Shown here: piece by piece, positions 17,578 through 32,452 of the stretch
Layout of the letters: each line of letters opens with the position of its first letter
Numbering within the stretch: position 1 is the first letter of the stretch
Source of the DNA: a virus
Length of the DNA: 33,862 bases
IMG/VR virus record: IMGVR_UViG_3300047365_000343
Coordinates: 1 to 33,862 of that record
Reading direction: 5' to 3' (one strand)
Notes under the pieces: generated by a model
The model's input: only the letters and a program-made list of their open reading frames with translations
What the model was told of the DNA's origin: nothing
The model's database searches: none
Position numbers and translations under genes: made by a program

Positions 17578-17591
17578 TATTTATATTTATA
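17578..17591 (-). promoter_or_regulatory. Double overlapping T4-type late promoter
   Basis: The minus strand reads TATAAATATAAATA, which is two overlapping perfect TATAAATA late motifs six bases apart. It overlaps the stop codon of the giant 3127-residue gene (17587-17589) and lies about 37 nt before the gp8 ATG. A leader inverted repeat, GTATTGTAATAC, follows at 17555-17566. This is the strongest late promoter candidate in the window. Confidence 0.75.
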
Positions 17592-20500
17592 AAGCATTTC
17601 TGATATAATCACCTATGGAATGACTAGTAATGAGAGATTGATCAACACCCCTTGTACATCCAATGAAACGATCACTTAATTTATTGGTATAAGAAATTTT
17701 TTCTTTTCCTATCAAAATAGTTCCAGTAGAAGCAAAATTAGTAGTATCTGCATACACCACTGCTCCTGTAGCAAGATATCCAGCATCTCCCTCTGCAGGC
17801 AAATCATCTGTATCTAACTGTATGATATAGTTATTAATAGATGGGTATGCTAACTTAAACTCTCTATTAGAATCTAAGAGAGATCCGTCTGCTTGAATAT
17901 CAAAGTATCCAAGGTCTTCTATAGTAACTTTAGATACGGGGAATCCTCCGGTAGAAAGAATGTCTCCAGTATTCATAAATTTAGCATATTCCCATTGATC
18001 AAATGTATACGTAATTGTTCCAACCGAAGTGGGATACGCTTTATTCGTTTCAACTATAGTAGTCAATGATGGTTGAGAAGCAATGGTTTGATCTAATTCT
18101 AGAATAATTACTATATTAGAATTTTGTTGATTCGTAGATATATCAACACTTTGCTGCGAATTAACTCTCCACGCAATTTCTCGCGAAGCTGCAAATGTAG
18201 CAGAAAAATTCAACTCTTTATAAATTTCTAAATTAACCTTTGAATCCACACTAACGGCAGAAGATAATACAAATGCACTTGCGCTATCAAAATCTTGGAA
18301 GAACTCAAATAATGATGTTGCTTGTACTGGTGATTGTTGTTGGATTTGTGATCTTACTTCTAGAGTAACAAAACTATCAAACTTTCTACCTCTTTGCTTA
18401 ATTATTTCATATTGTTTTGCAGTTACCACTTTAGGTGGTTTCGTATATCCAGAACCAGGATTAACAAGAACAATATCAATAATTTGACCGCGTGATACAA
18501 TTACTTCAGCCCTAGCACCACCACCCTGTTGATTAACTGGAATAAAATGTAAAATTGGTGGACTTTCATAACCATACGCGGTAGTTGGTTGAATAATACC
18601 TTCATCAAATAATAGTTGCAAATCTTTCTTATTCCATTCTAAAGATGAAATTATTCCATTGGTTATATTACAAGTAACACTAAGACCAACACCTTTAGTT
18701 TCGCCATTATAATTTGATGTTACAATTGATCCAAAGAAATCGTTAGATACATCTTTACCTGGAATATAATTTTTTGGAGATACAAATTGCGGTAATTCTG
18801 ATACCGTTCTAAAATCATCTTCTCCGGAAATTTTAATAATATCTCCGGCAGTTAAGTTTGCTAAAAGTTTTTTCTTTACATAGAAAGATTCTTCTGCTAA
18901 TTTTGTACCATATAACCACTTAGTAGAATTTCTCTGCATTTTATAATTTTGATCTTCATCACTTGAAATAGAAATAGTGTTTGTCGTAAAATCTAATTCA
19001 TATTCATCACTGTAGTCAGTTGTTCCAGTAAAGAAAATTGAAGAATTATCTAGATCCGGATTTACGCCAGCAAAAGTAATAATCAATGATTGATTTGTTG
19101 TTGTGTAACCTTTGATATTACCAATAAATTTATTAACACCATTTATTTTCTGATAGGCAACTTGGTATCCATCATACGAGTTTCCATACCAAGATTTCCA
19201 ATCTGTGAAATTGTTTTGAGATCCTGCATCACAAGTAAGTGTCAATTTATTATAGTAAGAATTTCTTTCAAAGTCATACAATGTGATGGTTTGATCAATA
19301 TCTCTTCCATATAGTAAAACAATTTCTATATTGTTATCAATACGAATATTTCTACTAAATTTAATACTAGGACCAGTAATATTATAGGAAATACTTTCTC
19401 TTTGTAAAATACCGTCAATAAAAACGTATACAAATCTTGTATCGTTTATAGTTTTTACTTCATTGCTTTCAGAATCTATAATTAAGAATGGTCCAGGAGA
19501 ACCAGTTAAAATACCAGATGAATCAATTTGACATCTAATATAATTGCCTACGCTATATGCAAAGAATTTTTCTACTGCTAATGGTTCTTGTACTGTCTTA
19601 GTATTTTCTTCCTGCGCCCAAATTGGTGGAGATGCAAAAACAACTTTATTTGGTATTGATGTTCTATCAATATAATACGAACTATTATGTTGCAGGACAC
19701 CATTTAATCCAATAAATAAATTCTCATTTGGATCTGTATTTAACGGAGTACCATCCTCATAATATAAATCAAATATTTTATTTTCGTTATCAATATAATC
19801 GGCATAACTGATAGTAGATGTTCCTGCTCCAGTAATCAAAGTTTGACGAATATTTTCATACAGAGAATCAATTGCTGATGCAACTTCTTCGCATTCCTTA
19901 AAATTGCCATTGGATAATTCTGGATCTGGGAGAATATTAATATTTGTATATGTTCTTAAATTAGTCCAATTTCCTCTCGAATTTTCATTTGGTTCTATAA
20001 TAGCAATTCTATTTGGACCACCCTCTAGGATAGATTCTACAACATTAATATAAGTTGTAATGCTGCTTTCTACTTCTATACAATCTGGATTGATTGAATC
20101 ATCTGTAACGTTATCATCAGTAACTACTCCTTGATTCCTCATAGCAAGAATCATTTGATCTCTAAGATAACTGTGTGCAAATACAGTTTGCATCAATTCA
20201 TTATTGATAAACGTCAGTTCATTATCAATAAAATAACTATTACCAAATTCAACAATTTTTCTATTACCACCAAAAATTAAACATTGCTTGACAGCATCAA
20301 TTAACAATCCTAGATCCCTAGCACACTTAGACGGATAGTTATTAGCATTTAAATTTGGATACTCTGAATCAATTGCATTGATAGTTGACGTAATCATTGC
20401 AGATCTATTCTTTTCAATTAATTCTGCAGCATCAACAAAGAATCCTGCATTAATTCCACTCCAAATAAAAGTCATCTGGTTATTATCTCCAGTGACTGAT

Positions 20501-23500
20501 GCGTTATTACTTACTTTAATAGTTCTTCCGTTTACAATCTCAGTAATTTTTGTTCCTGCAGAAAAAGATCTGCCAGAAGATACTTTCATGCCAACAGTAA
20601 TATTATCGGTATTACTGAGCGTAATCTCATTAGATCCCTGAGTCCAAGAAGTTTGTCTGTCAATAAAATCCCAATTTCTCATTGCTAACTTAGACAATCT
20701 AGCAACAAACGCAAATGCTTCTATGGTTGCTTCAATTTCTCCTGAAATATAGTCAAGAACACCAGAGCTAAAATAAGATTCAACCGAAGAAATTGTTTTT
20801 TGATTTCCCCCAAATCTCAAGTCGTGTTCTAATGCATCAACAATTAAACCAATATCACGATAACATTTGGATTCTAATGTTCCCCATGTTAATGCGGGAT
20901 ACTTTTCTTTAATATATCCAAGAGTTTCGGATTGAATAAATCTTCTATTTCTACCAAGTTGATTTGCGGCATCAATCCAAGTTCCACTTCTTTGAAAAAT
21001 ATTTCTAATTTTCCTAAGATATTTTTGATTTAATGAATCCGTTTTAAACTCAAATAATCTACCGTAGAAAGTAACACCCGGAACTAATTGACCATCCTTT
21101 AGTGATTGACCTAGAGGAGGTTGTGCAAATATAATTTTATCATCTTGTATCGTATAAGATTCTCCTGGTTCTTGAGCGATACCATCGAGAGTGATAGTTA
21201 AAGATTGATTGTTATATGGTTTAATTGAATTACCATTAGTGTCTACCATGGTAAACATAGTAGTTCCAGTCAAGTTTCCTTTATCAGAAAAATTTCCATC
21301 AAAATTTGCAGTTAAGAATACTTCCTTTGCTCGGATTTCAGAGTTATTTGTACTATCAACAGAAACAGACCCAACACCCTTTTCGATGTTGAGATTTTTC
21401 ATCAAAATTATATTTTGTGTAACATTTTTTCTAGTACTCTCTACAGTAACTTTGTTTACTTCTGGATTCCAAACCTGAATAACACTTACTCCTTTAGTGA
21501 AAGTATAATCACTCATTCTTGCTTGTGATGAAGTTTCAATATCAATTTCACCAAATAATTTAAATCCAGAAGGATGAGTAGTTTCTTTAACTAATTCTCT
21601 CCAAATATTAATCGGGGTTTTTGATTTTACCAAATATGAATAATCTTGATAATAGAAAGAATCGTGAATTTTTTGATTTGCATCACTAACTTTTCCATAA
21701 TCAGATTCGTAATATCCCATATTGTCATAATAAGATCTTATTGATGCATCAAATTCAGTGTAGTTAATAGCATCAACAACTGCAGTATTATTCCTTGATA
21801 ACCCAGTTATACCAATACCTTCTCTGAAAATTCCTGTTACTCTATCAACCGATAAAATATTAGAACCCTTCCTCCATGAAGAAACTCTTGCTCTAGCAAC
21901 TTCTTTTGACCCGATGCTTTGAATAATTGTTTCTCCAACGGCAAAAGCATCTGTTACAAAGGATGATACTGTAAAAATGTAGTTTGATCTAAAAGATGAT
22001 CTTAATGTTTGATCACTATAAAATCCACCCCCATTTGCAATAACTTTCATATTTCTTGGGATTCCAATATCGTCACTGTTTAAGAAGCATCCAATTTCGG
22101 ATTCGGCAATAGTAATAGTTGGGGTACTACTATATTCAGAACCAAAGTTATCAATATTAACGCCAGTAATTCTACCAGAATCTAAAACTGCACTAAGTTC
22201 TGCATTGCCATCAATAACAATAATAGGATTTACATAGTCACTACCCGATTCCGTTACGGTTACGCTAAAAATTCTGCCGTCCCTGATAGTAGCTACTGCT
22301 TGTGCAGGTCTTGCTGGAATTGCACCTCGGATAATAGGAATTTTTTTATAATCTCCTCCAATGTTCGTAATTTTTACAGTATTGATTTTACCAATAGAAA
22401 AACTCGATTTGGTTGTATAAACAATAGTACCACTTCCGTCATGTGGTGCTTTAGTTGGAGTTGAGTATGCAATTGAAGTTGGAGTTACATATAGAGGTAG
22501 TTTTTCTCCCTGTAAAGGATCATCAATCAAATTAAAATATGAACCTTCAGAAGAAACAATATTGTTTTTATCAAAATAAAAATATCTCGAATATTGTACT
22601 TCTTTCTTTTTACTGTAGTTATTTGAATTGATTCTAGACCCAAATCCAATCTTTAAATCTACAATATTTCCATTATCTACTTTTTCTGTGGTGATTAAAT
22701 TTAAATTGATACTTGGAGATATATTAAAATTAATACCAGTCATTGATGAGTGGGATACATCAAAATTATATTTGTAGAATTTCTTAATATCAATAATTGG
22801 GTTGCGAATAAATGTTGAATTATCTTCCGAAAATTCAAAGTAAATTTGAGGATCTGAAATTGAAGAAAATTTAACTAACCTCGGATCTACACTTTGATCA
22901 AAAAATACTGTACTGAGTACTTGTCTATTGATTGAAGTAAGAGTTTCATTGTAATCATATACAAAAACTACTTTTTGAATAGCGGGGTCATAAGAGAGAA
23001 CAGTGGGATCTTTAGATGTTGCTCCCAATTGATATCCAAGGTTTAAATTATATCCAGGATCATATAAAGAAATTGTTGCACCATTGAAGTGATCTACTGC
23101 AGTTGTTTCTTTTTGCGCTCTTTGAACGGTAATTTTATTATCGGTTTTAGAAAATACTTTGACAATTTCATTACCAATTCTTAAATAATCATTATTAGTG
23201 ATTCCAATTGCACTATCAACGTTAATAATAGAGTTTTGTAATGAAAATCCAATATGATCAACACTTATCTGTAAATCTGGTGTAGTGGTGTCAGTTTTAT
23301 TCAACGCTGAGTCGCCTACCGTTAATATATCAAATTTTTCATAACCAGATCCTTTATCTGTAATAGTTACTTCAGATACATGCCCCAAGGAGTTAACCAC
23401 TAATGTAGCCTTTGCATCTTGACCTTTACCGCCAGCTAAAGCAATATCATTGTAAGTATTTGGAGTATAATCTTCACCACTATTAAGAATATCAATTCTT

Positions 23501-26500
23501 CCAACTCCTGTATCAACAAGTGTTCTTTCTACATTTGGAGTTTGAAATATTGCTTCTTGATAAATTCTTTTTCTTACGAAATAGGTTGTAGTAGTTACGG
23601 AATCATCGGGAAAAATATCAACGTTGATATTTTCGCTAACGCCAACACCATGTGCATCCGAAGTTTTTATTAATGCAACATTATCAGTTATTTGAAATAT
23701 GGTTAAATCATCGCTCAATGAGTTAATTGCAAAAATTTTAGAACCGGTAGTATTAATTAAGTCAGAACTTGATAAAAATAAACTGGTACTAGGTGTGAAT
23801 GTACCTGTTAAGATTTTAATTTTAACAGAATTTTGTGAGTTCGTTTCTTCTAGAATTTCAGCTGTTGCAATCGGTGGAGTCAACCCATCGCCAAGTGATA
23901 AAATTGCTCCTTTTGTATATGAGGAATTCTGATCCAAGATTAATGCGACTACATTCGTACTAGAAGACAATGTATCTGTACTATTAAAAGTACCAGTAAC
24001 ATTTCTCAGTACAAAATTGTTGGAAGTAAACACGTCTCCAACAATTTCTCCTGTAGCTCCTGTATTTGATTGCGTAATAGTATCACCATCAAACAAATAT
24101 GCATTTTCTTTTAATTGGAAAAATAAACATTTTGTTTGTTGTGATTCAATTGATAGCACATTTCTACCAACTACCGAATCTACTTGTGCTGCAGCACCAG
24201 ATCCATCCGTTAAGTTATCATCAACAATTAATTGAGATCCTACAGAATAAACTGCAGTACTATCATAAACCGTAGCAGAAGAAACACTTCCTCTAATAAC
24301 ATCTTCAATCTTTGAAATTACTGATGAACCGTTAGAAGGAATATCAGAAGTTCTTAATCTTCTAGCGAATTTCGGTAAATCATATTGAGAAATTTCTGAA
24401 TTGTAATTTGAATCTAATGGAAGCGAATAATAATTCACTCCAACAATGTAAGGAAACTCAGGTATATTTGATGTACTTACTGTCATGAAGTAAGCATATG
24501 TTCCATTGGGAAATTCTGGTGTTACACAAAACCTACCATTATTTTCATCTAAAGATCCTGATTCATCATTATATGTGTAATCATTGATAAATGTGCCTAA
24601 CGGATACGTTCCTGTATTTGGACCGATATCTCTAGAAATGTTTTTAGAATAACTAGTTGTCATTCTAACGATGGAACTTTGAGAATCTAAAGGATTAGAT
24701 AAACCATAAGGACCATAAATGGGATTTCCATCATAGGCAAATCCTAGGATTGGTGAGTGTGTAGATCCGGTATCATTTACTCTTAATGTTGATGGTGGAC
24801 CATAGTATGCATAACCATGTCCACGCGAGTTAACATAGTTTTTGAAAAAATAACCGTTATCCGAATCTAAAATATTTTTGTTCTTATTAAATCTATCTTT
24901 TCTCCATTTTTTAATTCCGGCAGTTGCAACTGCTCCGGAACCTACTGAAATAATATCTACAACAACGTTTTCTGCAGTATATAAACTTCCGCCATTGATT
25001 TTTTCAAATCCTACAATTTTTCCATCTGTAGAAATTATTGCGGTATAATCTGCAAATCTACCTTTACCCGCATTATCTGTAATTCTTACTTCGGGTGGAG
25101 ATGAATAATATTCACCTTCATTCTGGACTACAATACTTGTAATCTCTCCATTGGTTACAATTGCCCTTGCTTGCCCATTTCTGCCGGATAAAATCTCAAC
25201 TGTTGGAGTACTAGAATAATTTCCTGGGGTATCTAAAATTACAGATTCTACTACTTGTCCAGCAAGATTTGTTCTTGCTAGATTGGAAATGCCGTCAATT
25301 AAAATAAATGGTGCTTTTTGATAACCATTACCTCTTGTGTCAACAGTAATTGTTTCAATTGGACCAGAGAGGATAAATTCGTCATCCTTATACGAGAGAT
25401 ATGGAATACCATTCAGTGCAATACCAATATCGCGATATTTTGTTTCGTAAATCTCGGTAGTTTGAATTGGAGATTTTCTTATAATCTTTAATAATTTTTG
25501 GTCTTGAACATCACTAGGAATATTTGCGTTTGAAGGAATTATATCATGTGATGGAAAACCAGAAGATGTTATGTAGTATCCAGTTTCATCTTCAAAAATA
25601 GCAGAAACATCAGAGTTTAATTCTGCGATAGTGGCACTTAATCCAGCATTATTTGAAGAGAATGGAATTGATGATGATAAATTCCATCTTAGGTTATTTT
25701 GATCATCAACAATTTTTATATCATTCGTAAGAAATCCTGATTCGGAAACTTCAATTGATTCTCCGGGATTTGAATATGGTGTTTGACTTTGATTTTGTAG
25801 TCCATATAAAACACCATAAACGAGAATATCAACTCCATTTCCAGAAACATTAGCACCGAATGTTATTTCGCTTCCGGATAAATGACTTCCTGTCCCACTA
25901 CGAGTTTTTAAAATAAACTGATTTACGTTTTTATCTTCAAATGTAAATATTTCATTATTAATTTTAAATTGACCTTCTTTGTTCCATGCCAATGTGGAGA
26001 ACACATCAATTCTATCACCGGGAACTAAAGTAGCATCAATATCTTTTGTTAAGATAGTTTTAGCAGCAATAGAAAATTTTCCATTAACACTTTGCTCTGC
26101 TAAAATTAAATCATATAGATCTTCTCCGTTGTATTTACCAGAAAATCTGACATTATCGACAACAGCAGAAGCGTAGTCACCATCTACGTTTTGAACGATT
26201 TCTTGACCAATTAAACTGTTTGGATCACCGAAAACAACTTTTGCTCTTAGTGCATATACATTGATCCAATTTGAATCTGAGTTCTTTAAAGTAAATTCTC
26301 TTGGATATTCAATTTCAGGTGTTTGAACGTCTTTAATTAAACACTTGAACAAGAACTTGATAGAATTGTCAGTTCCTTTTGATTTATAAAATGTTGAAAT
26401 ATTTTTGATAAGAGTTCTCTTATCGACATCTCCTTTAAGATATGCTTCAGGAAATTCGCTAAGGTATTGTTTCTCGAAACTCTTAACTAAAGAATATAAA

Positions 26501-26970
26501 AATAAATTGCTGATATTTTGTACCGAAGATCCAGCAACATGATCTGCAGATTGTGTAGTTATAAAATTACTACCAGAATATAAATCACCAATCTTGGTGT
26601 TACCACTAATGCCACGACTAACTTCTAAAAATTGGCTATCGGTTCTTTGATTATAAAAACAAATTTCATCATCAATTTTAATATATCCGCCATTTTTTGG
26701 AAATGACGTTGCATCATCTACAGTAATAGTAAGATCTGTTTTTTGGATGAATCCAGTTAATGATGTAGATTGTTTGAGAATATTTTTCTCGTAAAAATCA
26801 ATATCACGATATGTTTGGATATTATTAATAATATCCAAAGGTTGCCCTTGGAGTTCTAATTGCTCATAATATTTTTGTATAAACTTACTAAAAAGTTCAT
26901 ACTCTTCATTAATGAAATCCGGTAATTGAGATTCTATCAGGAATGAGACCTGATTAGCAGTTCTTTGCAT
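17587..26970 (-). CDS. Giant baseplate-region structural protein in gp7 position, 3127 aa
   Basis: It starts MQRTANQVSFLIESQLPDFI. It lies between gp6 and gp8, where T4 has gene 7 (wedge protein, 1032 residues), but is three times that size. Visible parts: ten 'GSGYxxxPxVxI'-type beta motifs (for example 'GNGYQKAPFILIDG', 'GSGYTKPPKVV'); a YHYH-like domain at about 705-850 ('GYAYYGPP', 'GFAYDGNPIYGPYG', 'NGRFCVTPEFPNGTYAYF'); and four helical Cys-containing repeats at about 2020-2380 ('KCYRDIGLIVDALEHDLRFG', 'KCARDLGLLIDAVKQCLIFG' and two shorter ones). No enzyme active site was seen. The start is 6 nt after the gp6 stop, implying co-translation with the wedge genes. A wedge or peripheral baseplate role is inferred from order; homology to gp7 is not shown. 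Confidence 0.75.
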   Translation of the reverse strand: MQRTANQVSFLIESQLPDFINEEYELFSKFIQKYYEQLELQGQPLDIINNIQTYRDIDFYEKNILKQSTSLTGFIQKTDLTITVDDATSFPKNGGYIKIDDEICFYNQRTDSQFLEVSRGISGNTKIGDLYSGSNFITTQSADHVAGSSVQNISNLFLYSLVKSFEKQYLSEFPEAYLKGDVDKRTLIKNISTFYKSKGTDNSIKFLFKCLIKDVQTPEIEYPREFTLKNSDSNWINVYALRAKVVFGDPNSLIGQEIVQNVDGDYASAVVDNVRFSGKYNGEDLYDLILAEQSVNGKFSIAAKTILTKDIDATLVPGDRIDVFSTLAWNKEGQFKINNEIFTFEDKNVNQFILKTRSGTGSHLSGSEITFGANVSGNGVDILVYGVLYGLQNQSQTPYSNPGESIEVSESGFLTNDIKIVDDQNNLRWNLSSSIPFSSNNAGLSATIAELNSDVSAIFEDETGYYITSSGFPSHDIIPSNANIPSDVQDQKLLKIIRKSPIQTTEIYETKYRDIGIALNGIPYLSYKDDEFILSGPIETITVDTRGNGYQKAPFILIDGISNLARTNLAGQVVESVILDTPGNYSSTPTVEILSGRNGQARAIVTNGEITSIVVQNEGEYYSSPPEVRITDNAGKGRFADYTAIISTDGKIVGFEKINGGSLYTAENVVVDIISVGSGAVATAGIKKWRKDRFNKNKNILDSDNGYFFKNYVNSRGHGYAYYGPPSTLRVNDTGSTHSPILGFAYDGNPIYGPYGLSNPLDSQSSIVRMTTSYSKNISRDIGPNTGTYPLGTFINDYTYNDESGSLDENNGRFCVTPEFPNGTYAYFMTVSTSNIPEFPYIVGVNYYSLPLDSNYNSEISQYDLPKFARRLRTSDIPSNGSSVISKIEDVIRGSVSSATVYDSTAVYSVGSQLIVDDNLTDGSGAAAQVDSVVGRNVLSIESQQTKCLFFQLKENAYLFDGDTITQSNTGATGEIVGDVFTSNNFVLRNVTGTFNSTDTLSSSTNVVALILDQNSSYTKGAILSLGDGLTPPIATAEILEETNSQNSVKIKILTGTFTPSTSLFLSSSDLINTTGSKIFAINSLSDDLTIFQITDNVALIKTSDAHGVGVSENINVDIFPDDSVTTTTYFVRKRIYQEAIFQTPNVERTLVDTGVGRIDILNSGEDYTPNTYNDIALAGGKGQDAKATLVVNSLGHVSEVTITDKGSGYEKFDILTVGDSALNKTDTTTPDLQISVDHIGFSLQNSIINVDSAIGITNNDYLRIGNEIVKVFSKTDNKITVQRAQKETTAVDHFNGATISLYDPGYNLNLGYQLGATSKDPTVLSYDPAIQKVVFVYDYNETLTSINRQVLSTVFFDQSVDPRLVKFSSISDPQIYFEFSEDNSTFIRNPIIDIKKFYKYNFDVSHSSMTGINFNISPSINLNLITTEKVDNGNIVDLKIGFGSRINSNNYSKKKEVQYSRYFYFDKNNIVSSEGSYFNLIDDPLQGEKLPLYVTPTSIAYSTPTKAPHDGSGTIVYTTKSSFSIGKINTVKITNIGGDYKKIPIIRGAIPARPAQAVATIRDGRIFSVTVTESGSDYVNPIIVIDGNAELSAVLDSGRITGVNIDNFGSEYSSTPTITIAESEIGCFLNSDDIGIPRNMKVIANGGGFYSDQTLRSSFRSNYIFTVSSFVTDAFAVGETIIQSIGSKEVARARVSSWRKGSNILSVDRVTGIFREGIGITGLSRNNTAVVDAINYTEFDASIRSYYDNMGYYESDYGKVSDANQKIHDSFYYQDYSYLVKSKTPINIWRELVKETTHPSGFKLFGEIDIETSSQARMSDYTFTKGVSVIQVWNPEVNKVTVESTRKNVTQNIILMKNLNIEKGVGSVSVDSTNNSEIRAKEVFLTANFDGNFSDKGNLTGTTMFTMVDTNGNSIKPYNNQSLTITLDGIAQEPGESYTIQDDKIIFAQPPLGQSLKDGQLVPGVTFYGRLFEFKTDSLNQKYLRKIRNIFQRSGTWIDAANQLGRNRRFIQSETLGYIKEKYPALTWGTLESKCYRDIGLIVDALEHDLRFGGNQKTISSVESYFSSGVLDYISGEIEATIEAFAFVARLSKLAMRNWDFIDRQTSWTQGSNEITLSNTDNITVGMKVSSGRSFSAGTKITEIVNGRTIKVSNNASVTGDNNQMTFIWSGINAGFFVDAAELIEKNRSAMITSTINAIDSEYPNLNANNYPSKCARDLGLLIDAVKQCLIFGGNRKIVEFGNSYFIDNELTFINNELMQTVFAHSYLRDQMILAMRNQGVVTDDNVTDDSINPDCIEVESSITTYINVVESILEGGPNRIAIIEPNENSRGNWTNLRTYTNINILPDPELSNGNFKECEEVASAIDSLYENIRQTLITGAGTSTISYADYIDNENKIFDLYYEDGTPLNTDPNENLFIGLNGVLQHNSSYYIDRTSIPNKVVFASPPIWAQEENTKTVQEPLAVEKFFAYSVGNYIRCQIDSSGILTGSPGPFLIIDSESNEVKTINDTRFVYVFIDGILQRESISYNITGPSIKFSRNIRIDNNIEIVLLYGRDIDQTITLYDFERNSYYNKLTLTCDAGSQNNFTDWKSWYGNSYDGYQVAYQKINGVNKFIGNIKGYTTTNQSLIITFAGVNPDLDNSSIFFTGTTDYSDEYELDFTTNTISISSDEDQNYKMQRNSTKWLYGTKLAEESFYVKKKLLANLTAGDIIKISGEDDFRTVSELPQFVSPKNYIPGKDVSNDFFGSIVTSNYNGETKGVGLSVTCNITNGIISSLEWNKKDLQLLFDEGIIQPTTAYGYESPPILHFIPVNQQGGGARAEVIVSRGQIIDIVLVNPGSGYTKPPKVVTAKQYEIIKQRGRKFDSFVTLEVRSQIQQQSPVQATSLFEFFQDFDSASAFVLSSAVSVDSKVNLEIYKELNFSATFAASREIAWRVNSQQSVDISTNQQNSNIVIILELDQTIASQPSLTTIVETNKAYPTSVGTITYTFDQWEYAKFMNTGDILSTGGFPVSKVTIEDLGYFDIQADGSLLDSNREFKLAYPSINNYIIQLDTDDLPAEGDAGYLATGAVVYADTTNFASTGTILIGKEKISYTNKLSDRFIGCTRGVDQSLITSHSIGDYIRNAL

Positions 26971-30221: not shown

Positions 30222-30605
30222 TTATTTGAGTTGTGTACCAATTAGTATTGTAGGATGTTGGAACGGTCCTGTCAAGGGCCTCGGTGTGCCTCCTATTAAC
30301 AACTGTGCTTCGTCCCCAGTAACAGCAGGTAATTGTCCGTTGATAAAGACAGTTTTATTCACCAACGGTCTGATGATCCTTGTGCCTGGTTGACAAGGTA
30401 ATGGAATAATATTCGTAGGTAACGGTACTGGGACTGTAGGAGCACACACATAGGGTGCAGGAGCGCCTGCAATGATCTTCAACGGTGTGTTGTTGACAAC
30501 CACTGTTGTTGGTATTGGACTGCCTCCTATTGCTAATGCAGGGTATATACAGAGAGCATCTGTACTTGCAGTGTCTACTGTTTCTGGTCCAACAAAATTT
30601 GGCAT
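30222..30605 (-). CDS. PAAR-like baseplate spike-tip protein (candidate)
   Basis: 127 residues rich in Pro, Gly, Val, Ile and Thr in short beta-like repeats. The C-terminal third ('KTVFINGQLPAVTGDEAQLL', then 'GGTPRPLTGPFQHPTILIGT') resembles the PAAR pattern of 'VFINGKPAARVGD' blocks spaced by glycine and histidine. PAAR proteins cap the central spike in contractile tails and type VI secretion systems; T4 gp5.4 is one. The protein lies just upstream of the baseplate genes, which fits. A good Shine-Dalgarno sequence (AGAGGT) lies 7 nt before the ATG. The classical PAAR residues are only partly present, so another small beta-rich structural role remains possible. Confidence 0.6.
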   Translation of the reverse strand: MPNFVGPETVDTASTDALCIYPALAIGGSPIPTTVVVNNTPLKIIAGAPAPYVCAPTVPVPLPTNIIPLPCQPGTRIIRPLVNKTVFINGQLPAVTGDEAQLLIGGTPRPLTGPFQHPTILIGTQLK

Positions 30606-30826
30606 TTCGCTACCTCTGTGTGAAGATAATCAAGCGTCTCCGCTATCGTCTGATAATTCTGGCATTGGGGTGGCTTGTACATCAATTGGGGGCGTTCTAA
30701 TTGTGATACCCTCTTCTCCACCGTCATCAACTTCTCTTGCAGCTCTTGGAGTTGCTCGCTTAACTTCTGCATTGTTAATTGGTTGTCTTGAGTCATCATC
30801 CAGTCCCGCAAATCGCCTCGCTGCAT
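30575..30826 (-). CDS. Possible overlapping (dual-coding) coiled-coil ORF
   Basis: An 83-residue frame that overlaps most of the 87-residue acidic gene and the first 31 nt of the PAAR-like gene, each in another frame. Its product looks protein-like: 'MQKLSEQLQELQEKLMTVEK' then 'RVSQLERPQ', a clean heptad pattern, ending 'TEVAKCQILLDQKQ'. The heptads echo the coiled coil of the neighbouring 81-residue protein. Against it, the wobble bases of this frame are G-rich, unlike the AT-rich wobble of nearby structural genes, while the overlapping 87-residue frame has AT-rich wobble. Possible starts are ATG at 30826, 30799 or 30796; none has a strong Shine-Dalgarno sequence. Confidence 0.3.
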   Translation of the reverse strand: MQRGDLRDWMMTQDNQLTMQKLSEQLQELQEKLMTVEKRVSQLERPQLMYKPPQCQNYQTIAETLDYLHTEVAKCQILLDQKQ

Positions 30827-30893
30827 TCATCTCGAACTGATCGCAGAACACATCGAAGTTGTTTAAAATCTCTTCGTAGTTATTATTTGGCAT
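30630..30893 (-). CDS. Small acidic protein of unknown function
   Basis: 87 residues from MPNNNYEEILNNFDVFCDQF to 'MPELSDDSGDA'. The N-terminal 25 residues may be helical and the rest is a disordered-looking, Asp/Glu- and Pro-rich tail. An upstream GTG would add four residues, but the ATG at 30893 has a GGAAAG Shine-Dalgarno sequence at suitable distance. It overlaps the previous gene by 11 nt and ends 24 nt before the PAAR-like gene. Codon wobble is AT-rich, which supports this as a genuine frame. No family is recognised. Confidence 0.6.
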   Translation of the reverse strand: MPNNNYEEILNNFDVFCDQFEMNAARRFAGLDDDSRQPINNAEVKRATPRAAREVDDGGEEGITIRTPPIDVQATPMPELSDDSGDA

Positions 30894-31128
30894 TGAGCTT
30901 TCCACTTACCTCGGGGTAGTCCGATAGCGCATTCTTCGGAAATCTTGCTTCCTCTTCCATGTCCATCACTTTCTTCTCTAGAGACACTAGGCGCGTTGCC
31001 ATCTCTTCGATGATCTCTGCCATCTTATTAAGTTGTTTCTCTTGTACTGCGAGTTGAAACTGAGGATCCCTCTTCAGTGGATCGTTGAGGTTTGCCAGGA
31101 CAACTTCTTGCTCGATCTTTTCAGTCAT
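30883..31128 (-). CDS. Small coiled-coil protein
   Basis: 81 residues beginning MTEKIEQEVVLANLNDPLKR. Residues about 33-60 ('KMAEIIEEMATRLVSLEKKV') form a clear coiled coil. It is the first gene after the GC-rich cluster and is preceded by a GATAAATA late-promoter-like motif 59-66 nt upstream, with a strong hairpin in the leader. It therefore probably heads the structural transcript that includes the PAAR-like gene. No Shine-Dalgarno sequence is visible. Function unknown. Confidence 0.65.
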   Translation of the reverse strand: MTEKIEQEVVLANLNDPLKRDPQFQLAVQEKQLNKMAEIIEEMATRLVSLEKKVMDMEEEARFPKNALSDYPEVSGKLNAK

Positions 31129-31186: not shown

Positions 31187-31194
31187 TATTTATC
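31187..31194 (-). promoter_or_regulatory. Late-promoter-like GATAAATA motif
   Basis: The minus strand reads CCGATAAATAAATTTG. It matches the T4 late consensus TATAAATA at seven of eight positions. It lies in the gap where the GC-rich small-gene cluster ends and the AT-rich structural genes begin, 59 nt ahead of the first structural-side gene. Confidence 0.5.
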
Positions 31195-31244
31195 GGTCGT
31201 TGGGATACTTTTGTAGGTTAGGGACTTAGGCATTTTTGCTGTCA

Positions 31245-31287: not shown

Positions 31288-31941
31288 TCAAGCGTGGCAA
31301 CCCTCGGGTGCGAATCCTGTGAGTTGGCGGTAGGCGTAAGCAAAGCGCAGCGCCTTCTCTTCTACAGGGCGACCCATGCGACCGGTCATATCACAACGTG
31401 GCATGCCATCACAGTCGTAATGGAATTTCACGGGTGCGTTGGCGTGGGACTGACCGATCCAACCGTCTGCCCATACCTGAGGTTCGCGCATGGTCTGCTT
31501 GGCATCAGCGATCACTCTCTCCAACACAGACAGAGGGAGAACGAACCACTCGCCGCCACCCTCCTGCTGTGTGTAGAATTTACGGTACTCAGCAGGCACA
31601 GCGTGATCCATGCTATGCAATGTGCTGTATCCCATCTCCTGCAATGTGCTGTGCAGATCTGCCTCTGCCTTGCCCACGTTGCACACGGTCATCAGGGCAT
31701 GGAAGTACGTGTCGCCGTCGTTGCTGGTCTGGTGATTGCAGAGCACCTTGTATGCTTCTGCCTCGCCACCGCTGGCAAGACCAACCTTGACTGCAACCCA
31801 CTCGGTGTCGTTTGCTGTGATGACATTGCTCCGGGACATCATGAAATAAATGACGCCCTCACCCTTGGGTTGCTTGCCAACCTGCTTGCCCTTCTTGGTC
31901 TTGGTGGCGAACGTGTAGTTTGCAGGTAGTTGGTTAGTCAT
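31288..31941 (-). CDS. GIY-YIG/T5orf172-like protein (candidate nuclease)
   Basis: 217 residues. Segments occur in the order expected for the T5orf172/MUG113 branch of the GIY-YIG nucleases: 'GVIYFMMSRS' (29-38), 'VAVKVGLAS' (49-57), 'KAEADLHSTL' (91-100, with candidate catalytic Glu93 and nearby His97) and 'GGGEWFVL' (128-135). The arginine usually found after the 'KxG' strand is not obvious, so activity is uncertain. The C-terminal 65 residues carry 'HYDCDGMPRCDM', possibly metal-binding. GIY-YIG enzymes cut DNA in homing, restriction or repair. The coding sequence is GC-rich (about 55-60%) with G/C wobble, unlike the structural genes. No Shine-Dalgarno sequence; an ATATACACAAG leader precedes it. 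Confidence 0.5.
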   Translation of the reverse strand: MTNQLPANYTFATKTKKGKQVGKQPKGEGVIYFMMSRSNVITANDTEWVAVKVGLASGGEAEAYKVLCNHQTSNDGDTYFHALMTVCNVGKAEADLHSTLQEMGYSTLHSMDHAVPAEYRKFYTQQEGGGEWFVLPLSVLERVIADAKQTMREPQVWADGWIGQSHANAPVKFHYDCDGMPRCDMTGRMGRPVEEKALRFAYAYRQLTGFAPEGCHA

Positions 31942-31982: not shown

Positions 31983-32171
31983 CTAGTGACGGTCGCTGAT
32001 GTTCCAGTTAGTGGATTGGACGGGTTCGATACGTCCTGCTCTCACTGCCTGCCTGTACTCATGCTCTGCCTGCATCTGACGTTGGATTTTCTCCATGACG
32101 GTCTGCATCAGAGGAGAGGGGTTCTCGTTGTGGAGAAAGAAACCGGTTCGTTGCATTGCTTTGTTTTCCAT
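31983..32171 (-). CDS. Small hypothetical protein
   Basis: 62 residues, MENKAMQRTGFFLHNENPSP onward, with a helical, Gln- and Met-rich centre ('MQTVMEKIQRQMQAEHEYRQ'). The frame continues upstream to a GTG at 32198 that overlaps the previous gene; the ATG at 32171 is preferred because it follows the gap and has AGGGA close upstream. GC-rich like its neighbours. No family is recognised. Confidence 0.6.
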   Translation of the reverse strand: MENKAMQRTGFFLHNENPSPLMQTVMEKIQRQMQAEHEYRQAVRAGRIEPVQSTNWNISDRH

Positions 32172-32173
32172 GT

Positions 32174-32186
32174 CCCTAGTATAGGG
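32174..32186. other. Compact hairpin CCCTA-GTA-TAGGG
   Basis: A perfect five-pair stem with a three-base loop, in the 17-nt gap between two small genes and directly before the ATG at 32171. Its minus strand also contains TATACT. Similar G/C-run hairpins occur in two neighbouring gaps (32486-32500, 32822-32832). Confidence 0.4.
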
Positions 32187-32188
32187 GA

Positions 32189-32452
32189 TTAGTTCCACCC
32201 CGTCGCCTCTGATGGGACAGTTTCAAAATCGGTTGCTAGAGGTGAGTCAAGCACGTAGCGATTAACCCACTCGCCTGCTGACTGCTTGAGATCAACCAAG
32301 AAGCGCAGCATGTCGCGGCGTCTCACCTTGTGGTTGCTGTAGTGACCCGAATGCCAGAAGATCATGCATTGACGGGTGACAGGGTAGAGGTTGATCTGAA
32401 AGGTTGCTGTGCTGTCAGTGTGGAGAATGATGACAGGGTTGATCATTGACAT
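32189..32452 (-). CDS. Small hypothetical protein
   Basis: 87 residues, MSMINPVIILHTDSTATFQI onward, including 'MIFWHSGHYSNHKVRRRDML' and ending 'SEATGWN'. The frame is open to an ATG at 32509 that would overlap the upstream gene. I chose 32452 because it lies behind the ACACAAG leader, in the same position as in the neighbouring genes; ATG at 32446 is also possible. A mixed alpha/beta fold is plausible. No recognised domain. Confidence 0.6.
   Translation of the reverse strand: MSMINPVIILHTDSTATFQINLYPVTRQCMIFWHSGHYSNHKVRRRDMLRFLVDLKQSAGEWVNRYVLDSPLATDFETVPSEATGWN

Follow-up and report, generated by a model that had tools for sequence, protein, structure and literature searches.

The T4 Seg endonucleases and I-TevI join an N-terminal GIY-YIG domain to a C-terminal DNA-binding part and are associated with exchange between co-infecting phages. 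Genes encoding T5orf172 domains are treated, in part of PMC10448857, as homing-type genes located at borders of genetic exchange, and another part of that article describes I-TevI as doubling as a transcriptional repressor. For Odn, a T5orf172 nuclease that keeps the catalytic arginine, a section of PMC8263062 reports cleavage of a satellite origin and dependence on the conserved glutamate; the same source mentions an atypical plant domain in which other residues occupy core motif positions. An arginine at the centre of the domain and a glutamate are given as the hallmarks of GIY-YIG proteins in passages of PMC1564403, and a section of PMC9071465 likewise names arginine and glutamate. In that section, HIGLE uses Arg55 with Glu95, Tyr31 and Tyr45, and the arginine coordinates the nucleophile and contacts the scissile phosphate. 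The mechanisms set out in these portions of PMC9071465 and PMC1564403 depend on a helix-1 arginine. Here we describe a cyanophage gene family that appears to belong to the T5orf172 branch and in which the arginine is missing from its expected position in every member.

The gene lies in a virus record of 33,862 bases, the whole of which is referred to as the window. Its gp6- and gp25-like genes, together with the isolates that it matches best (Synechococcus phages ACG-2014e, h, i, j and S-CAM4), identify the window as a fragment of a T4-like cyanophage. The open reading frame at 31288..31941 on the minus strand has an ATG start and a TGA stop and encodes 217 amino acids. It is a real gene under purifying selection, with dN/dS values of 0.16-0.24 between the window and loci L004, L006, L007 and L009 and of 0.03-0.40 over all 16 pairs computed. 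Elsewhere in the window, a 3,127-residue open reading frame (17587-26970, minus strand) lies beside gp6; at the corresponding place, ACG-2014e encodes a virion structural protein.

All relatives found came from uncultivated viral contigs, which gave 26 distinct near-full-length members; over the length of the window protein, ten of these have just 33-45% identity to it. Scanning IMG/VR yielded 25 loci, and more members were reached through the adjacent DNA element described below and through the C-terminal part of the protein. The member search covered 180 sequences (197 less 17 re-fetched copies or reference phages) and gave 66 matches, 59 of them with at least 190 residues and many of them repeats of one contig; collapsing these left the 26 members, a count that excludes one truncated copy of another member, and the 28 rows of the alignment include the window twice. 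A tblastn search of 50,697 phage records returned nothing for the window protein (E <= 1) or for the L018 member (E <= 10), and two scans of prokaryote-genome contigs yielded no relative. BFVD contains a T5orf172-named protein of S-RIM14, but a search of the isolate genome gave no match even at E <= 10. Among the papers listed by our literature searches, taken at the level of the listings, we saw no report of T5orf172-type genes in marine T4-like cyanophages, to which the present family adds them.

We then compared the protein with known families. The motifs GVIYFMM (residues 29-35), VKVGLAS (51-57), EADLH (93-97) and GEWF (130-133) occur in the order of the T5orf172 family, as a preliminary description of the window had noted. 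The Pfam T5orf172 profile (PF10544) matches residues 30-145 with an E value of 0.0031 and 18.4 bits, under the curated cut-off of 20, and the MUG113 profile (PF13455) matches with an E value of 0.015, likewise under its cut-off; the profile search proposed in that description thus found both families, each below threshold. Among 15 aligned relatives, 14 matched both profiles at E <= 10, the best at 0.00024 and 0.00056. In six-frame searches of eight relative records with PF10544, four gave matches at E <= 0.001, three of these above the cut-off and only with neighbours in frame, and the other four, all of them gene-bearing, gave none. The same profile found nothing in seven isolate cyanophage genomes, with ICP1 (seven places) and T5 (two) as positive controls; this negative result is weak on its own because the profile missed four of the eight gene-bearing records. 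No family for the 217-residue protein was found in PHROGs, NCBIfam or PADLOC.

An AlphaFold model built from an 18-sequence alignment (mean pLDDT 71, with ten-residue blocks from 31 to 120 at 77-94) predicts strands at 28-36, 48-56 and 78-87 and helices at 60-72 and 89-102, in the GIY-YIG order of elements, and a further helix at 137-150. The motifs sit on a predicted three-strand core, whose absence was to have counted against the original assignment. From the Pfam match and these elements we place the core and its C-terminal helix at residues 28-147 (31501..31860, minus strand). Searched against viral models in BFVD with Foldseek, the model matched many T5orf172-named proteins with probability 1.00, and the named viral proteins were mostly of this kind, among the best 50 of 328 matches; the top E value there was 8.5e-4, the single one at or below 0.001. 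Plain Foldseek against the PDB placed no GIY-YIG chain among the best 50 of 97, and phmmer and profile searches of PDB sequences found none either; profile matches to a capping protein (E 0.09) and a glycosyltransferase (E 0.24) were rejected. In a second look at the PDB with VIA-align, the top eight matches were all GIY-YIG enzymes (Slx1 seven times, HIGLE once), with Z scores of 4.9-6.1 against 3.8 for the next, although the tool's documentation treats values under 8 as weak when they stand alone. In a direct comparison with nine T5 and ICP1 domains, the protein keeps the family order of K-I/L/V-G followed by glutamate, and hhalign aligned those columns, yet with a P value of 0.019 and a probability of 1.2%. 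Because motif, profile and fold agree, we assign the protein to a diverged T5orf172/MUG113-type GIY-YIG group, on sequence and model evidence, in support of the assignment first proposed.

Tyr32, Lys52, Gly54, Gly59, Glu60, Thr72, Asn74, Gly76, Glu93, His97 and Glu131-Trp132-Phe133 are invariant in all 26 members. Tyr32 (31846..31848, minus strand, as are all positions in this paragraph) is the GIY tyrosine, and Lys52 (31786..31788) belongs to the K-V-G at the YIG position, where the T5 and ICP1 domains also have lysine. The hallmark glutamate in the C-terminal part of the domain is present as Glu93 (31663..31665), a candidate metal-binding catalytic residue already singled out in the preliminary description, and His97 (31651..31653) completes an E-x3-H found in both T5 and three of the seven ICP1 reference domains. 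All nine T5orf172 reference domains (seven ICP1, two T5) have an arginine ten residues after the lysine of K-I/L/V-G. This arginine, described at the outset as not evident, is absent at +10 after Lys52 from every one of the 26 members, which have glutamate, serine or alanine there. Two members (L052 and L058) have arginine at +9, adjoining the expected place, and nine of 26 have it at +19; neither is conserved. At +13 in helix 1, Lys65 (31747..31749) is a candidate stand-in for the catalytic arginine: 24 of the 26 members have lysine at this position, L089 has asparagine and L026/L027 have alanine. The lysine and glutamate are 38 residues apart in the T5 domain L049 versus 41 in the window protein, so a turn longer by three residues would place Lys65 at the arginine position; the hhalign alignment, which lacks this three-residue gap, puts Glu62 there instead. 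Searching the literature for lysine in connection with the catalytic arginine yielded no papers.

The C-terminal part (residues 157-217; 31291..31473, minus strand) has no recognised fold, and all relatives of sufficient length carry it together with this GIY-YIG domain. No other fusion partner turned up: five further loci comprised two GIY-YIG members and three contig-end fragments, which are uninformative. Zinc-finger-type ligands are not conserved in what the earlier description called a Cys/His part, with cysteine at position 177 in three and at 183 in 14 of 26 members and a variable residue at His174. Conservation instead falls on Trp157 (22/26) and Trp161 (24/26), on a GRxGRP motif at residues 187-192 (31366..31383, minus strand), whose Gly187, Arg188, Gly190, Arg191 and Pro192 are each present in 25 of 26, and on the helix that follows, with invariant Phe200, Arg205 and Thr208. 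GRxGRP could be a minor-groove DNA-binding arm; we take such GRP arms to resemble AT-hooks and the arm of Hin recombinase. Predicted alone (mean pLDDT 68), it gave a best Foldseek E value of 1.6 against the PDB, and none of 228 chains reached a VIA-align Z of 2, which is no proof of a new fold. Two tblastn matches among the phage records, at E 5-6, were taken as chance.

In the family loci read, the gene is surrounded by small genes, with the baseplate operon following. Its upstream neighbour in the window is phrog_14769 (31983..32198, minus strand), which ends in NISDRH and has no assigned function; downstream, an 81-residue gene that we call g81 (30883..31128, minus strand) starts the baseplate-side operon. 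Between the latter and the GIY-YIG gene lies a single-copy 20-bp element, CCTAACCTACAAAAGTATCC (31203..31222, minus strand), which we treat as a neighbour of the gene. The element is exact in 21 of 25 family loci, has one mismatch in two and was not found in L026/L027. Besides the window, it was noted in L001-L007, L009-L021, L024, L025 and L034-L036. Of ten records examined, seven have it, each as a single copy and one with three mismatches. This non-coding sequence is identical across cyanophages whose gp25 proteins are about 47-76% identical, and it lies ahead of the baseplate-side operon, 8 bp 5' of GATAAATA (31187..31194, minus strand), which matches the cyanophage late promoter motif NATAAATA given in a section of PMC2984593. 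At least 119 IMG/VR stretches carry the element.

To see where the gene is present, we compared 123 element-bearing stretches (at least 118 from IMG/VR, the window and four isolates), 64 of which extend at least 900 nt upstream. Nine of the 64 have the GIY-YIG gene and 55 do not; a smaller set of 85 stretches gave 45 comparable ones, eight with the gene and 37 without. The gp25 proteins are 61-73% identical to that of the window in stretches with the gene (the window left out) and 33-63% identical in those without it, and presence of the gene, as far as these comparisons reach, mostly follows phage lineage. The 81-residue gene accompanies it in all nine stretches and occurs in only one (L096) of the 55 others, and is probably a lineage marker. 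The members that most clearly fall outside the main lineage are L014 and L015, which have gp25 identities of 56-57% and lack the g81 gene. In the isolates ACG-2014i and S-CAM4, the interval from the NISDRH gene to the element contains phrog6036 and DUF7249 genes in place of the window's GIY-YIG gene.

Several other features of the slot were considered. The 20-bp element was set aside as a homing target because its sequence is the same whether or not a phage has the gene. The boundary sequence CTGACCCTGTAG was dropped as a recombination site, having one exact copy in the window and its other matches far away; at up to two mismatches it has five matches against 1.28 expected, a number reached in 2 of 100 shuffles. 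The preliminary description had placed the gene at the edge of an island, and this claim did not hold: the G+C step at that edge recurs at the equivalent place in the isolate ACG-2014e and is therefore no marker of a foreign island. Rfam found nothing around the gene. At 30575-30905 of the window, genes of 91 and 83 residues overlap in different frames of one strand, and the two occur together in most of the loci compared. Directly downstream of the GIY-YIG gene in L014 and L015, and also in L148, is a short open reading frame (MNTKQLHKIAKINGWTKARNGGKHFIYKHEQ...) that may be HicA-like.

We next examined divergence across the slot. Between the window and L002-L005, the GIY-YIG gene has a dS of 0.07-0.09, the lowest of all genes measured; upstream neighbours have 0.16-0.76, and downstream g81 is saturated, gp25 reaches 1.8-2.2 and gp6 1.34-1.43. 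In 50-base bins, identity is 88-100% across the gene and 56-76% from about 150 to 450 bases past its stop. The GIY-YIG protein tree unites the window with L002-L005 (support 100/98). In the gp6 protein tree the partner of the window is L006 (100/99), and the gp6 data reject the GIY-YIG clade of the window and L002-L005 (p-AU 0.0064). The gp6 data also reject a group of L014-L017 (p-AU 0.0149), which is missing from the best GIY-YIG tree and unrejected by the GIY-YIG data (p-AU 0.33). L009-L012 form a weakly supported group (66/52) in the gp6 tree, one that the GIY-YIG data do not reject (p-AU 0.074). The groups in these tests were picked after the distances had been seen, and in the gp6 tree L004, L005 and L026 have under half of the gp6 columns, L026 being a long branch.

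The pairwise comparisons were made among loci sampled for carrying the gene. In 16 of 253 pairs the pS of the GIY-YIG gene is below 0.30 and that of gp6 above 0.40, with the reverse in 0 of 253; these 16 pairs share members, are not independent and represent few events. Taken over all 253 pairs, the pS of the GIY-YIG gene falls below that of gp6 in only 144 and below that of gp25 in 141. The same low-pS test is passed by neighbouring genes as well, namely the 91-residue gene g91 in 14 of 231 pairs (a gene whose pS is biased down because its frame overlaps that of the 83-residue gene g83), DUF7249 in two of 78 and phrog_14769 in two of 36. L015 shares with L016/L017 a block of 678 bp at 93-94% identity, whose end lies 11 bases after the GIY-YIG stop; the L015 contig starts inside the gene, so that the upstream edge of the block lies beyond view, and past the block, all that aligns is a gp25/gp6 stretch at 67-69%, several short pieces and 42 bases at the 20-bp element. 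Around the gene, L014 aligns with L016/L017 over 726 columns (85% identity), and just upstream a second block of 279-289 bases, covering DUF7249, is 90-91% identical; in this case more than the gene itself was therefore transferred. L148 matches L015 at 98% over 3,875 downstream bases and L014 at 99% over 326 bases starting four bases after the L014 GIY-YIG stop, and the L148 contig ends 18 unmatched bases later. These sequence comparisons indicate that divergent phage backbones have exchanged the GIY-YIG gene at a constant slot.

Our preferred reading, which we hold tentatively and as somewhat less than an even chance, is that the gene encodes a free-standing, homing-like DNA nuclease of the T5orf172 branch of GIY-YIG with an altered active site. 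Tyr32, Lys52, Glu93 and His97 would have been kept and the helix-1 arginine lost, with Lys65 probably substituting in most members, and the C-terminal part with its GRxGRP arm would probably bind DNA and direct the cut. When two related cyanophages enter one cell, the gene product would cut the gene-less copy of the locus, and repair would then copy the gene and some flank across. The exchange between divergent backbones thus bears out part of the mobile-type label first given to the gene; homing by its own cut goes beyond what the exchange shows. Small genes nearby are shuffled as well, presence is mostly a matter of lineage, and a passive exchange of neighbouring genes would yield the same transfer pattern. 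Against the homing-like reading, the arginine is missing throughout, L026/L027 and L089 are without Lys65 as well, and we hold the reading lower because L014 shares DUF7249 with L016/L017 and presence tracks lineage. No target site of the gene product was identified.

The exchange of neighbouring genes also fits a second explanation, that the protein is an active nuclease for some other phage function, such as attack on host DNA, competing phages or satellites, and rides passively in a region where small genes shuffle. Purifying selection on the gene fits this explanation, as does a presence that largely follows phage lineage, the pattern of a vertically kept function; Odn of ICP1, whose cleavage of a satellite origin depends on its conserved glutamate (a section of PMC8263062), is an example of such a role. 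Against it, 55 of the 64 comparable element-bearing stretches are without the gene, so that most relatives manage without it, and we regard this function as unlikely but a serious contender.

The loss of the arginine at its position in every member also fits a third explanation, that the GIY-YIG domain is catalytically dead and is retained for DNA binding, for instance in a regulator of the adjacent early-late boundary. The GRxGRP arm could bind DNA, the gene adjoins a conserved single-copy 20-bp element 5' of a late promoter, and I-TevI provides a precedent as a transcriptional repressor (part of PMC10448857). A dead domain, however, need not keep Glu93, Tyr32 and His97, which are invariant even at 33-45% identity, and the element is also found in phages without the gene and is absent from the record of the gene-bearing L026; we consider this account doubtful as well. 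That the protein has no GIY-YIG kinship and carries its motifs by chance would fit the sub-threshold Pfam score, the absence of PHROG, NCBIfam and PADLOC families and a plain Foldseek PDB list (best 50 of 97) devoid of GIY-YIG chains, but is highly improbable given the predicted fold, the viral structural matches and motif residues invariant across 26 members.

A broader and more speculative proposal, improbable as a whole on present sequence evidence, is that these proteins form a GIY-YIG subfamily of marine cyanophages in which the arginine has been replaced by a lysine-based or otherwise rebuilt site, perhaps involving the invariant Gly59-Glu60, Thr72, Asn74 and Gly76 and, in most members, Lys65. 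Such proteins would still cut DNA, would spread as cassettes at the early-late boundary and might perhaps also bind the 20-bp element. A conserved and exchanged phage family without the arginine offers a test of active-site rebuilding, or of a nuclease turned DNA-binding protein.

Among known systems, Slx1 and HIGLE, GIY-YIG resolvases, are the best second-look PDB matches of the window protein (Z 4.9-6.1); they are cellular enzymes with 7-12% identity to it, and HIGLE uses Arg55 (as described in part of PMC9071465). The T4 Seg endonucleases and I-TevI resemble it in architecture, an N-terminal GIY-YIG domain followed by a C-terminal part, and the window protein differs from them by the missing arginine. 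Odn (ICP1 gp88), which acts against the PLE satellite, likewise joins a T5orf172 domain to a separate part and has the conserved glutamate, according to sections of PMC8263062. The same sections give Odn a catalytic arginine and an N-terminal RepA-like DNA-binding domain, whereas the extra part of the window protein is C-terminal and found no match in the searches made. The T5orf172/MUG113 proteins (PF10544, PF13455), represented by two from T5 and seven from ICP1, share with it the GIY-YIG core, the lysine of the second motif (K-I/L/V-G) and the conserved glutamate; E-x3-H is present in five of these nine references and EWF in one, the T5 domain L049. Like the window gene, they are phage-borne, and they are reported at borders of genetic exchange (part of PMC10448857). 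The window family differs from these references in having no arginine at +10, a C-terminal part of its own, a sub-threshold Pfam score and the specific invariant residues Gly59-Glu60, Thr72, Asn74 and Gly76. Because the family fits the T5orf172 homing-type kind but lacks its arginine, we regard it as a variant of that kind.
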